Positions 4,697 to 8,637 of a stretch of DNA of 8,813 nucleotides are shown here, piece after piece. Below the pieces are notes generated by a model that saw only the letters and a program-made list of their open reading frames with translations, did no database searches and was not told the origin of the DNA. Position numbers and translations under genes: made by a program. Source of the DNA: an uncultured Bacteriovorax sp. (GTDB lineage: Bacteria; Bdellovibrionota; Bacteriovoracia; Bacteriovoracales; Bacteriovoracaceae); contig CAMLMH010000023.1 of the NCBI GenBank assembly GCA_946481315.1, positions 1 through 8,813 of the forward strand, read 5' to 3'. Within the stretch, counting starts at the first letter, position 1, and each line of letters starts with the position of its first letter.

Positions 4697-4702
4697 TATA
4701 AT
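4697..4702 (+). promoter_or_regulatory. Consensus -10 hexamer for the thioredoxin gene
   Basis: TATAAT at 4697-4702 is a perfect sigma-70 -10 sequence. It sits just upstream of the terminator's 5' arm (4704-4710). No good -35 is found 17 bases upstream (TAGTAG 4674-4679, inside the end of rplQ). Transcription would be expected to start about 4709-4710, inside the 5' arm, so the resulting RNA could not form the terminator hairpin and would keep the GGAGG free. Promoter activity is inferred. Confidence 0.45.
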
Positions 4703-4703
4703 G

Positions 4704-4729
4704 AGCCTCCCTAGCGGAGGCTTTTTTTT
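4704..4729 (+). terminator. Intrinsic terminator of the ribosomal operon; its 3' arm is also the SD of the next gene
   Basis: AGCCTCC (4704-4710) pairs perfectly with GGAGGCT (4716-4722) around a 5-base loop, CTAGC, and runs into eight T residues (4722-4729). This is a textbook intrinsic terminator for the ribosomal operon. The next start codon, ATG 4730, follows the T run with no gap. GGAGG (4716-4720) lies 9 bases before it, in ideal position to act as SD. The terminator stem and the ribosome binding site are thus the same bases. Confidence 0.93.
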
Positions 4730-5380: not shown

Positions 5381-5424
5381 TACAACTGAGGGGCCTTTAG
5401 CCCCGTACTCTTGGGAGAGTTGTA
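5381..5424 (+). promoter_or_regulatory. Predicted structured leader around the activator start
   Basis: TACAACT (5381-5387) pairs perfectly with AGTTGTA (5418-5424), and the last A is the first base of the ATG start codon. Inside lies a GC hairpin, GGGGC (5390-5394) with GCCCC (5400-5404) and a 5-base loop. The SD GGGAG (5413-5417) falls on the 3' side between the two stems, next to the outer stem. If the outer stem forms, the start codon edge and SD are partly masked. No T run follows, so this is not a terminator. A translational control role is inferred. Confidence 0.45.
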
Positions 5425-6989
5425 TGATTAATTGGCAAGATATGGGTAAACTTCACGTTATTCAAAAGCTGGAAGGCATTTTGGGTAAATGGTTTGATGT
5501 TGAAATGTTCTACACAGATGCTCACGGCAAACTGTGGTCAGATCATGCTAATAAAAACTTCTCATTCAAAAGTCCTTTTATGAAGGTGCAGATGCAGTCA
5601 GCTTATGGCCATGACTTCTTAGCAGAAGATGTAGAGAAGATGGTGGAGATGCTGGCAACCGGAAAAGAAGAGCTGGTTGTTTACGAGTCTTATTTTAAAC
5701 ACGTTAAAGGTGTAGCTTTCCCGGTTAAAATTGAAGGGGAATTCGCTGGTGCGGTTTTTGTTTATCCATTTGTTTTGGATACAGCAACAAGCTCTGATAT
5801 TGAGATGCTCAAAAAGCAAATGATGGAATGTGGAACTCCTGAAGCAGATGCAGCGATGGCCTGTGAAAAAATTAAAAAGATGTGGCCGCGCGAGCTTGAA
5901 TACGTAAAAGAGCTTACAGGGCTAGTAGCTGAAGAAATGGTTTCATTTCACGATGAAATCACTAAGCGTGAAACTCAGATCCAGGCGTTGAGTTCGGAAG
6001 TGGGCGAGAAATATCGCTACCACTCGATGATTGGTAAATCGAAAAAGATGCAACAGATCTATGCTCTGCTTGAAAAAATCTCAAGCTCAGAATCAAGTGT
6101 TTTAATTCAAGGGGAAAACGGTACTGGTAAGGAGCTTGTAGCAAAAGCCATTCACTTCTACTCACCAAGAAAAGATAAAATGTTCCTGGCAGTAAACTGT
6201 TCAGCGTTCAACGATAACCTTCTTGATTCAGAATTATTCGGTCATGTGAAAGGATCGTTCACAGGAGCTGTGAAAGATAAAAAAGGTTTATTTGAAACGG
6301 CTAATGGTGGAACGCTTTTCCTGGACGAAATCGGGGACACAACACTTTCAATGCAGGTTAAGCTTCTGCGAGTCCTGCAGGAAGGAACGTACCTTCCGGT
6401 GGGGGCTACAACTCCTAAAAAAGTAGACGTGAGAATCGTTGCTGCCACAAATAAAAATCTAAAAGAAATGATGGCCAAAGGTGAATTCCGCGAAGACTTG
6501 TATTACAGAATTAACGTTATCAACGTGGCCCTGCCACCACTTCGTGAACGTCATGAAGATATCCCGGTCTTAATGGATTTCTTCCTGAAGAAGAGATGCG
6601 ATGAATCGGGGAAAGCTGTAAAAACTTTCGCTAAAAAATGTATGGAAAAGATGCTGGATTACCCGTGGCCTGGGAACGTGCGTGAGCTTGAAAACGAGGT
6701 TGAGCGCCTGGTAGTTCTGGCAGGTGATGATAAGGTCATCGATTCGTCAAACCTTTCAGCGCGTATTCTGGACTGGGGAGCTTCAGCTGAACCGGCCTTT
6801 AAAGGCGTAAACACTGAAGGGACATTACGAGACGCTCTTGAGCAGCTTGAAATTATGATGATCCGTGAAGGCTTGAAACGATGCAACTTTAATAAATCAA
6901 AACTAGCTAAGGAGCTTGATATTTCCCGTGCCAGTTTGATCATGAAAGTTGAAAAATACGGACTCGATAAAAGAGCTAAAGCAGCGTAA
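5424..6989 (+). CDS. Sigma-54-dependent transcriptional activator with PocR/GAF-like N-terminal domain
   Basis: This is a bacterial enhancer-binding protein that would use ATP to open sigma-54 RNA polymerase promoters. Residues 1 to about 190 form a sensory region. The stretch GVAFPVKIEGEFAGAVFVYPF (96-116) resembles the core of PocR/GAF-type ligand domains, and a helical, probably coiled linker lies at about 160-195. The AAA+ domain (about 200-440) has Walker A GENGTGKE (230-237), the sigma-54 contact loop GSFTGA (277-282; Ser in place of the commoner Ala), Walker B GGTLFLDE (295-302), and the arginine-finger region FREDLYYR (355-362). WPGNVRELEN is at 415-424. A Fis-type helix-turn-helix (about 487-514, SKLAKELDISRASLIMKVEKYGL) ends the protein. 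The start is ATG 5424, with GGGAG 6 bases upstream; an upstream in-frame TTG at 5367 lacks an SD. No REC domain is present, so it is not an ordinary two-component regulator. Its signal and targets are unknown. Confidence 0.93.
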   Translation: MINWQDMGKLHVIQKLEGILGKWFDVEMFYTDAHGKLWSDHANKNFSFKSPFMKVQMQSAYGHDFLAEDVEKMVEMLATGKEELVVYESYFKHVKGVAFPVKIEGEFAGAVFVYPFVLDTATSSDIEMLKKQMMECGTPEADAAMACEKIKKMWPRELEYVKELTGLVAEEMVSFHDEITKRETQIQALSSEVGEKYRYHSMIGKSKKMQQIYALLEKISSSESSVLIQGENGTGKELVAKAIHFYSPRKDKMFLAVNCSAFNDNLLDSELFGHVKGSFTGAVKDKKGLFETANGGTLFLDEIGDTTLSMQVKLLRVLQEGTYLPVGATTPKKVDVRIVAATNKNLKEMMAKGEFREDLYYRINVINVALPPLRERHEDIPVLMDFFLKKRCDESGKAVKTFAKKCMEKMLDYPWPGNVRELENEVERLVVLAGDDKVIDSSNLSARILDWGASAEPAFKGVNTEGTLRDALEQLEIMMIREGLKRCNFNKSKLAKELDISRASLIMKVEKYGLDKRAKAA

Positions 6990-7019
6990 TTTTTTAAATA
7001 TTTGACGCAGTATAAGTAG

Positions 7020-7071
7020 CCTCCTAAGGAATGACAGTATAAAATGCTGCCTTCTTTAGGAGGTTTTTTTT
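7020..7071 (+). terminator. Terminator-like hairpin whose 3' arm is the SD of the carboxyltransferase gene
   Basis: CCTCCTAAGGAA (7020-7031) pairs with TTCTTTAGGAGG (7052-7063) over 12 base pairs, one of them a G-U pair. The 20-base loop holds TATAAA, and a run of eight T residues (7064-7071) follows. ATG 7072 comes directly after the T run. AGGAGG (7058-7063) lies 8 bases before the ATG and is a perfect SD, so hairpin formation would hide it. The element probably terminates transcription of the activator gene (stop at 6989). The long loop makes it a less certain terminator than the one at 4704. Confidence 0.75.
7038..7043 (+). promoter_or_regulatory. Candidate -10 hexamer inside the hairpin loop
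   Basis: TATAAA (7038-7043) matches the -10 consensus at 5 of 6 positions and lies in the hairpin loop. A start about 7050-7051 would give a leader of about 21 bases with the AGGAGG but without the 5' arm. The -35 position (AGTAGC 7015-7020 at 17 bases) is poor, and TTGACG at 7002-7007 is too far away to pair with it. Confidence 0.35.
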
Positions 7072-8637
7072 ATGCATCAAACGCAAACGCTTGAAGGCAA
7101 ACGCGAGCTATTACTAAAACTCAGACATGAGTCAGAGCTCGGCGGCGGCGAAGCCCGAATTAAAAAACAACACGAGCAAGGTAAATATACAGCAAGAGAA
7201 AGAATCGAGCGTTTAGTTGATCCAGGATCATTCCTTGAATTCGATCGTTTTGTTATCCATAAAAATCAAAACTTAGGTTTAGATAATAAATTTCTTGGCG
7301 ATGGTGTTGTCACAGGTATCGCTTCAATTAACGGACAAAAAGTTGCTCTTTTCTCGCAGGACTTTACGTGTTGGGGTGGAGCGCTTGGTGCTGCTCACGC
7401 TAAGAAAATCTGCAAGATTATGGATTTTGCTCTTGAAAACAGAATTCCGATGATCGGTATTAATGATTCAGGTGGAGCTCGTATTCAAGAAGGTGTTGAA
7501 GGTCTTGCTGGTTACGGTGAAATTTTCTACCGCAACGTAAAGTGCTCTGGAGTGATTCCACAAATTTCATTGATCATGGGGCCGTGTGCAGGAGGAGCCG
7601 TTTATTCTCCAGCTCTAACCGACTTCATTTTCATGGTGGATAAAACATCATATATGTTCGTTACTGGTCCGGATGTTATCAAAACGGTCACTCACGAGGA
7701 AGTAACAAAAGAACAACTTGGCGGAGCAACGGCTCACGCAGAAAAATCGGGTGTTGCTCAATTCAGAGTAGCAACTGAAGATGAATGCTTTGAGCGCGTT
7801 CGCGAGCTTCTAAGCTATATTCCACCAGCGAACTTCACGAAAGCGACTCCAAAGTATACTTCGGACATCGTTTACCGAGATAACGTAAAAATTAAAGAAA
7901 CCGTTCCGGCTAATCCAAAGAAACCTTATGACATGAAAGAAATCATCTTCGACATCGTCGACGATGCTCAATTCTTAGAAGTGCATAAAGATTACGCGAA
8001 AAATATTATCGTTGGTTTTGCTTCAGTTGGTGGTATTAAAATTGGTATCGTAGCTAACCAGCCGGCTGTTCTGGCAGGAGTTCTGGATATCGATTCATCA
8101 GAAAAAGCAGCTCGCTTTGTACGCTTCTGTGATGCTTTTGATATTCCTCTTTTAACACTGATCGATGTTCCAGGCTTCCTGCCAGGAACTGTTCAGGAGT
8201 TCGGTGGAATTATTAAACACGGCTCCAAGCTTCTTTACGCTTACTCAGAAGCAACAGTTCCATTAATTTCACTTATTACTCGTAAGTCATATGGTGGAGC
8301 ATACCTCGTTATGGCTTCAAAGCACCTTCGTTCAGACGTGAACCTCGCTTATCCAACAGCAGAAATCGCGGTTATGGGAGCGGAAGGTGCCGTTAACATT
8401 ATTTACCGTGGAGAGCTGGAAGGTTTAACCGGAAAAGCTTTCGATGACAAAAAAGCGCAACTGATTGCTGATTACGAAGAAAAATTTGCTAATCCGTATC
8501 GTGCAGCTGAGCTGGGGTTCCTTGATGCTGTTATTCTGCCGGAAGAAACTCGTAAACGTGTTTACGAATATCTTGTAGCGCTGAAAAACAAGAAACAAGA
8601 AAAACCAAAACGTAAACACGGTAACATTCAACTTTAA
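7072..8637 (+). CDS. Acyl-CoA carboxylase beta subunit (carboxyltransferase; PccB/AccD family)
   Basis: This subunit would transfer CO2 from carboxybiotin to an acyl-CoA such as propionyl-CoA, making methylmalonyl-CoA. The 521 residues fit the PccB/MmdA-type single-chain carboxyltransferase with two crotonase-like halves. N-terminal landmarks are QGKYTARERIERLVDPGSF (36-54) and GINDSGGARIQEGVEGL (129-145). The first oxyanion site is GPCAGGAVYSPALTDF (170-185). C-terminal landmarks are LIDVPGFLPGTVQEFGGII (363-381), the second oxyanion site KSYGGAYLVM (405-414), and AYPTAEIAVMGAEGAVNI (426-443). Position 412 is Leu. Human PCCB and Streptomyces PccB have Asp there (GGAYDVM), while Streptomyces AccB has Ile, so strict propionyl-CoA preference should not be assumed. 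Methylcrotonyl-CoA or decarboxylase roles are less likely but not excluded. The biotin carboxylase gene begins 9 bases after the stop. Confidence 0.93.
   Translation: MHQTQTLEGKRELLLKLRHESELGGGEARIKKQHEQGKYTARERIERLVDPGSFLEFDRFVIHKNQNLGLDNKFLGDGVVTGIASINGQKVALFSQDFTCWGGALGAAHAKKICKIMDFALENRIPMIGINDSGGARIQEGVEGLAGYGEIFYRNVKCSGVIPQISLIMGPCAGGAVYSPALTDFIFMVDKTSYMFVTGPDVIKTVTHEEVTKEQLGGATAHAEKSGVAQFRVATEDECFERVRELLSYIPPANFTKATPKYTSDIVYRDNVKIKETVPANPKKPYDMKEIIFDIVDDAQFLEVHKDYAKNIIVGFASVGGIKIGIVANQPAVLAGVLDIDSSEKAARFVRFCDAFDIPLLTLIDVPGFLPGTVQEFGGIIKHGSKLLYAYSEATVPLISLITRKSYGGAYLVMASKHLRSDVNLAYPTAEIAVMGAEGAVNIIYRGELEGLTGKAFDDKKAQLIADYEEKFANPYRAAELGFLDAVILPEETRKRVYEYLVALKNKKQEKPKRKHGNIQL

Follow-up and report, generated by a model that had tools for sequence, protein, structure and literature searches.

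A terminator-like hairpin with a promoter-like element in its loop and the Shine-Dalgarno sequence in its 3' arm is conserved before a carboxyltransferase gene in Bacteriovoracaceae

Immediately upstream of an acyl-CoA carboxylase carboxyltransferase gene in Bacteriovorax-type genomes lies a terminator-like hairpin, whose 3' arm contains the Shine-Dalgarno (SD) sequence of the gene and whose loop contains a -10-like element; comparison of the upstream regions supports the view that these are conserved together in relatives. The best explanation, and in our judgement a probable one, is a fused intergenic element combining terminator, promoter and SD sequence before the carboxyltransferase. It is conserved at one gene and does not appear to be a genome-wide rule.

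Results

The window and its hairpin

The window is the whole stretch of DNA that was analysed, 8,813 nucleotides in length. It contains secY, adk, infA, rpsM, rpsK, rpoA, rplQ, a redoxin-like gene, a sigma-54 activator gene, the carboxyltransferase gene and the beginning of one further gene; the ribosomal genes are presumably those named, having been recognised from their translated open reading frames (ORFs). None of the genes identified in the window is of phage type. Its closest relatives are Bacteriovorax/Bacteriovoracaceae genomes, with carboxyltransferase identities of 91-94% (L001-L005), and the host is of a group of predatory-type bacteria, with a Bacteriovorax-type genome. In relatives the locus adjoins ribosomal-protein and rpoA genes. 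The activator reached no curated NCBIfam cut-off among the 25 families listed out of 27. The carboxyltransferase ORF has 521 codons, opened by the ATG at 7072-7074; the solved structure closest to its product is the propionyl-CoA carboxylase beta subunit (PDB search, E 1.9e-197), and no NCBIfam cut-off was reached among the matches listed. The intergenic space between activator and carboxyltransferase is 82 bp.

Table 1. Features at the carboxyltransferase locus and the rplQ terminator (positions in the window).
Feature	Position	Strand	Basis or remark
Element at 4704: rplQ terminator, T run abutting the redoxin ATG in the window	4703..4729	+	Outside the conserved element
Upstream gene: sigma-54-dependent activator	5424..6989	+	Pfam Sigma54_activat, HTH_8; PocR sensory domain barely above cut-off
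TGACGCA block	7003..7009	+	7 bases upstream of the -35-like element; possible activator site
-35-like TAGCCT	7017..7022	+	Overlaps beginning of 5' arm; 17 nt ahead of the -10-like element
5' arm CCTCCTAAGGAA	7020..7031	+	Direct reading, RNA fold, covariation
-10-like TATAAAAT in loop (TATAAA at 7038-7043)	7038..7045	+	Match in 29/32 hairpin loci
Predicted carboxyltransferase mRNA start	7049..7053	+	At or past beginning of 3' arm; placed from the -10 position
3' arm TTCTTTAGGAGG, containing SD AGGAGG at 7058-7063	7052..7063	+	Direct reading, RNA fold, covariation
Eight T: terminator U tract and spacer between SD and ATG	7064..7071	+	Direct reading
Downstream gene: acyl-CoA carboxylase carboxyltransferase subunit (PccB-like)	7072..8637	+	Pfam PF01039, E 2.7e-193

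The arms of the 7020-7063 hairpin form 12 pairs, one being G.U, and the RNA from 7011 to 7080 folds at a predicted -27 kcal/mol (z -5.67), which was equalled by none of 200 shuffled sequences. With a stable GC-rich stem and U8 directly after it, the hairpin has the make-up of an intrinsic terminator. A sequence-only reading of the window had described a 12-pair hairpin with AGGAGG in its 3' arm, eight T, an ATG and TATAAA in the loop, and this description is exact to the base; its statement that the arms differ from those of a second element at 4704 is also correct. Its further statement, that the window has no other strong hairpin/T-run junction, is roughly correct: a terminator scan gave 10 terminator-like sites, mostly weak, where 6.4 (sd 2.3) were expected, and its loop limit of 8 left only a smaller stem (7049-7064) detectable at the hairpin locus. 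Rfam gave no match at its gathering threshold, and so no known aptamer.

Conservation and covariation of the stem

Upstream regions were drawn from the 23 nearest loci and from 81 carboxyltransferase matches in the family to which genome G001 belongs; 95 genomes were covered, 14 of them without a match at the threshold. Of the matches, 30 were present as loci, 40 were added and 11 were omitted (less than 70% identity or partial). Merging of 14 duplicate rows left 78 distinct upstream regions, the window counted; L011 was swapped for its better-started duplicate L172, and L018, which has no start by the rule used, is represented by L187. Start codons are uncertain in some rows (L175, L181, L186 and others below 79%). 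The hairpin, whose stem starts CCTC or CCTCC and has the SD as part of its 3' arm, is present in 32 of the 78 regions, chosen by eye with L021 (a 6-pair match) and L151 excluded. Five or more consecutive T follow it in 25 of these loci, and the T run is missing in the other seven.

In the 32-row alignment of a 13-pair stem, standard pairs make up 88.2% of cells, a figure inflated by the choice of loci by eye, against 80.0 after shuffling, and none of 500 shuffles was as high. Double-changed cells number 38 (shuffled mean 16.1; 38 reached by none of 500 shuffles) and the covariation score is 0.308 against 0.180 (sd 0.016; none of 500 as high), falling to 0.050-0.168 when the arms are slid by 1-3 columns; the shuffles ignore relatedness, these fractions are not probabilities and, since the rows are related, the pair cells are not independent. 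Pairs changed on both sides and further pair types were unremarkable in this alignment, with 57 and 73 of 500 shuffles as high, respectively. The inner seven pairs comprise 154 Watson-Crick, 37 G.U, 6 A.C and 26 other cells. As a G.U pair in the plus-strand RNA would be C.A in its complement, this excess of G.U over A.C suggests that the selected structure is most likely the plus-strand RNA transcribed from upstream. The sequence-only reading had made its proposal depend on conserved pairing of the 5' arm in relatives; the arms covary and the element is kept.

Promoter-like elements

In 29 of the 32 hairpin loci the loop holds a -10-like hexamer, matching at five or more of its six positions and starting between -39 and -27 from the ATG (shuffled mean 2.5, maximum 8); the flanking windows give 0-2 matches. 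The corresponding figure for hairpin-less loci is 17 of 46 (shuffled mean 4.7, maximum 14; flanking windows 2-8). Spacing of 17 nt between -35-like and -10-like elements is seen in 41 of 78 loci, 29 with the hairpin and 12 without (shuffled mean 1.3, maximum 6; other spacers 0-10), for a -35-like motif that was picked after inspection and matches TTGACA at 3 of 6 positions only. Five hairpin-less loci (L010, L156, L164, L168, L172) have TAGCNC or TAGTAC, 17 nt and TATGAT, and in L013 and L019-L022 TTTACC and TATAAC are separated by 17 nt. Since this geometry is present in hairpin-less relatives, the putative promoter would be independent of the hairpin. The internal plus-strand promoter, whose -35-like hexamer is a poor sigma-70 match, was not listed by a promoter scan of the window; the sole promoter-like site that the scan listed in the hairpin, CTGTCA-17-TATACT, is on the minus strand (window 7037-7009) and directed against the genes.

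Of the 78 loci, 16 contain TGACGC, and the hairpin is present in 11 of the 16. In the same five hairpin-less loci TGACGCA or TGACGCG likewise precedes the -35-like element, at a distance of about 7 bases, and a reversed GCGTCA lies ahead of TTTACC in L013 and L020. The TGACGCA block may be a regulator site.

Accessibility of the Shine-Dalgarno sequence

The predicted cost of opening GGAGG, averaged over the 32 hairpin loci, is 14.0 kcal/mol in read-through RNA against 3.0 for RNA starting near -20; the values for the window are 17.6 and, for its own transcript, 4.3. In hairpin-less relatives with GGAGG the predicted cost in read-through RNA is 6.1 kcal/mol (n=26). The contrast is smaller when expressed as mean SD pairing probability (0.98 in read-through RNA against 0.59 in the predicted own transcript), and the SD is still partly paired in the latter. 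Furthermore, predicted SD pairing in a short upstream segment is at least about 0.8 in 13 of the 46 loci without the hairpin; by itself, therefore, SD pairing does not set the hairpin loci apart. It is the position of the SD in the 3' arm, the covariation and the predicted opening cost that together place it within a conserved stem needing an upstream transcript.

Relation to upstream terminators and to gene insertions

Loci in which the sigma-54 activator directly precedes the carboxyltransferase, with a gap of less than 320 bp, were compared for terminators separate from the hairpin; the scan ran up to position -55 from the start codon in hairpin loci and up to -30 in the others. A separate terminator was found in 1/24 loci with hairpin and T run, 1/5 with hairpin and no T run, and 21/30 without the hairpin, an inverse relation between the two; the scan found no terminator in the other 9 of the 30 hairpin-less adjacent loci. 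Of the 24 loci with hairpin and T run, 23 have an intergenic length of 72-125 bp; L157, with 165 bp, is also the one with a separate terminator. On a tree of the C-terminal part of the activator the hairpin state requires 7 changes by parsimony, and an independent-pairs test of hairpin against separate terminator was not significant, with only 2 pairs on well supported branches.

In four of the loci without a T run where the regulator is adjacent (L169, L170, L173, L174), the scan found no other terminator, so the hairpin there cannot be a classic intrinsic terminator. The arms of the SD hairpin in L169, L170 and L173 are changed yet pairing, and a run of T6-T7 precedes the 5' arm.

Two loci carry insertions. 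In L003 an ORF is inserted on the same strand, and the hairpin remains with the carboxyltransferase, its T7 kept and with 2 arm mismatches; the insert, at about 8012-9880, is a 623-codon ORF between activator and carboxyltransferase with, by eye, a thioredoxin-like start. The inserted ORF of L023 is on the opposite strand; there the T run of the element is broken, the inner stem has decayed, and the activator has a terminator-like hairpin of its own. At L188, L191, L198 and L017 the T run of the activator's separate terminator stops 10-11 bases before TATAAC/TATAAA and occupies the expected -35 place of the carboxyltransferase promoter.

The 4704 element and the question of a genome-wide rule

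The sequence-only reading had taken the elements at 4704 and 7011 as copies of one design. The 4704 element is the ordinary terminator of rplQ: a T-run hairpin follows this gene in 17 of 18 loci by eye, the window counted and L016 being the exception, and among these loci its T run directly abuts an ATG only in the window, L007 and L017, with two bases between in L006. As its T run meets the next ATG only in some relatives, it was rejected as a sibling of the carboxyltransferase element. TATAAT (4697-4702) immediately precedes it in the window; by eye, the relatives keep no strong TATAAT-like box ahead of the rplQ terminator. The start of the redoxin gene is preceded by a pyrimidine-rich stretch in L001 (973-1029), L002 (7467-7514) and L004 (7604-7648), and its sole SD in these loci is the GGAGG within the rplQ terminator, 18-24 bases off.

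In the genomes of nine relatives the motif GGAGG-N0-2-T5-N0-5-ATG was counted 60 times (between 2 and 14 per genome, with one site entered twice), and its reversed control 14 times. Of the 55 distinct sites examined, 5 are the carboxyltransferase locus and 50 lie elsewhere. A full CCTCC arm is present at 8 of these 50 (shuffled mean 1.26, maximum 5). Arms are thus enriched over shuffled sequence, but a real ORF begins at only three of the eight arm-bearing sites. At the remaining five the reading frame is just 2-10 codons long, which suggests that the enrichment is mostly ordinary terminators followed by a chance ATG. With arm and real ORF together at 3 of 50 other sites, a genome-wide design rule goes unsupported in the relatives' genomes. 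The reading of a terminator/promoter/SD composite is supported at the carboxyltransferase locus, where the parts are jointly conserved and the arms covary, and is not supported as a second copy or as a general rule.

A covariance model of the element, R1, gave 26 matches at E <1e-6 in the 95 genomes, one in each genome concerned, and by coordinates all are directly upstream of the carboxyltransferase; it scored 51 first-look candidates per genome under stricter filters, most of its strong matches are its training sequences and, having been built from this locus, it could be escaped by differently worded composites elsewhere. A hand count placed CCTCC/GGAGG terminators at 64 distinct places in 10 genomes, by a pattern whose gap limit of 33 is too short for a complete hairpin like that of the window, with 34 bases from CCTCC to GGAGG, and whose last-base condition drops some sites. 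An ATG lies at most 2 bases after the T run at 9 of the 64: 2 at the carboxyltransferase locus, 2 at long ORFs, 4 opening 2-4 codons and 1 on contig C7 of G099. The long ORFs are a redoxin in G006 and, in G007, one of at least 90 codons, by eye a MurQ/GckR-like candidate. A candidate composite, GGGCCCTCC-GTTT-GGAGGGC-T7-ATG, lies near base 518 of L138 (G007); it is preceded by TATAAA, the ORF that follows has 90 codons or more, and it was seen in one genome only.

Discussion

In the fused element proposed here, RNA polymerase arriving from the sigma-54 activator gene would transcribe both arms, and the hairpin with its U8 would stop most transcripts. Any read-through transcript would hold the carboxyltransferase SD locked in the stem and so would be poorly translated. 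The carboxyltransferase would have its own sigma-70-type promoter inside the hairpin, with the -35-like element overlapping the 5' arm and the -10-like element in the loop. Transcripts from this internal promoter would begin at about 7049-7053 and lack the 5' arm, leaving the SD much more accessible with U8 as spacer. Termination, SD masking and an internal promoter would together insulate the gene from upstream transcription and save space. A stronger version, in which promoter, terminator, translational lock and SD all operate in the same 60 bases and upstream transcription silences the gene by termination, SD masking and promoter occlusion, is rather unlikely and is offered tentatively; if it is true, carboxyltransferase expression would fall as transcription of the adjacent sigma-54 activator gene rises.

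It is quite possible, if somewhat doubtful, that the hairpin is simply an intrinsic terminator of the activator gene, overlapping the next SD for want of room in an intergenic space of just 82 bp, with translation control an unselected by-product. This is compatible with the fused element, which includes it as its first half, and it would account for the inverse relation to separate terminators and for the recurrence of CCTCC/GGAGG terminators in the relatives' genomes. It sits less well with the seven loci that retain the SD hairpin and have no T run, some with compensated arms, or with the hairpin going with the downstream gene upon gene insertion. Alternatively, the hairpin could be the regulated terminator or sequester of a conditional attenuator, in a leader from a promoter upstream of 7020. 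Attenuators typically combine a terminator with SD masking; both are present here, and the upstream TGACGCA block is conserved in part of the relatives. However, no Rfam match was found at the gathering threshold, only about 30 bases separate the regulator stop from the 5' arm, no conserved competing arm was seen by eye in the 32-row alignment and the conserved -10 is located in the loop, all of which make an attenuator improbable.

The inverted repeat could also act as DNA, as the operator of a dimeric regulator. Inverted-repeat operators flanking promoters are common, and the repeat does lie on both sides of the -10; the inner arm letters nevertheless vary with pairing kept, and G.U is far above A.C, both signs of single-stranded RNA pairing, so that we regard an operator as very improbable. 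Least credible, judged from the relatives' genomes, is that the composite is a design rule of the whole genome. The two cases in the window, the motif count (60 against 14 reversed in nine genomes) and the CCTCC arms at 8/50 other sites against 1.26 shuffled gave it some encouragement; against this, five of those 8 sites open 2-10 codons, arm and ORF coincide at 3/50, and the 26 R1 matches are confined to the carboxyltransferase locus.

The closest parallel to the fused element is in phage T4. According to PMC2988022, the SD of I-TevI, I-TevII, I-TevIII, segB and Aeh1 mobE is hidden by a hairpin in upstream transcripts, and the I-TevI-type promoter lies close before the gene, where it gives an RNA not long enough for the hairpin and leaves the SD free; SD masking is reported there also for soc, e, 39, 25 and 26, without the promoter detail. 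As in the I-TevI leaders so described, the putative carboxyltransferase promoter is placed so that its own RNA could not form the SD-masking hairpin. Unlike them, the carboxyltransferase element has a bacterial host and a metabolic gene, and no late sigma factor is implied; its hairpin would double as a terminator, with the U tract as the SD-ATG spacer. What appears new beyond leaders of the T4 type is that the same hairpin also looks like the terminator of the upstream gene. Membership of the T4 leaders by descent was ruled out, the locus lying beside ribosomal-protein and rpoA genes in relatives, with no phage gene among those identified in the window.

Among mobile elements, read-through RNA of IS10 and IS200 forms a stem that covers the transposase SD, and the transposase's own transcript lacks this stem; the carboxyltransferase, unlike the transposase, is not a mobile gene. 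The GC-rich stem and U8 are those of intrinsic (Rho-independent) terminators, from which the element differs in containing promoter-like sequences and the SD of the next gene. In terminator/SD-sequester attenuators and riboswitches one hairpin may halt transcription and mask the SD; the carboxyltransferase element differs from these in having no known aptamer or visible competing arm, and in the promoter-like sequence inside it. An arrangement like that proposed for the carboxyltransferase was, for a bacterial housekeeping gene, unreported in the titles and abstract starts surveyed, a shallow survey with subscription journals mostly outside its reach, so that this silence is weak evidence of novelty.

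With strong support from the comparison of relatives, the element is a natural candidate, in a cellular organism, for the mechanism described in T4. Relatives keep the element in fused, in unfused and in half-decayed form, so that the way in which overlaps of this kind arise is open to study. For annotation it is a caution that promoter, terminator and ribosome binding site may coincide in compact intergenic regions.
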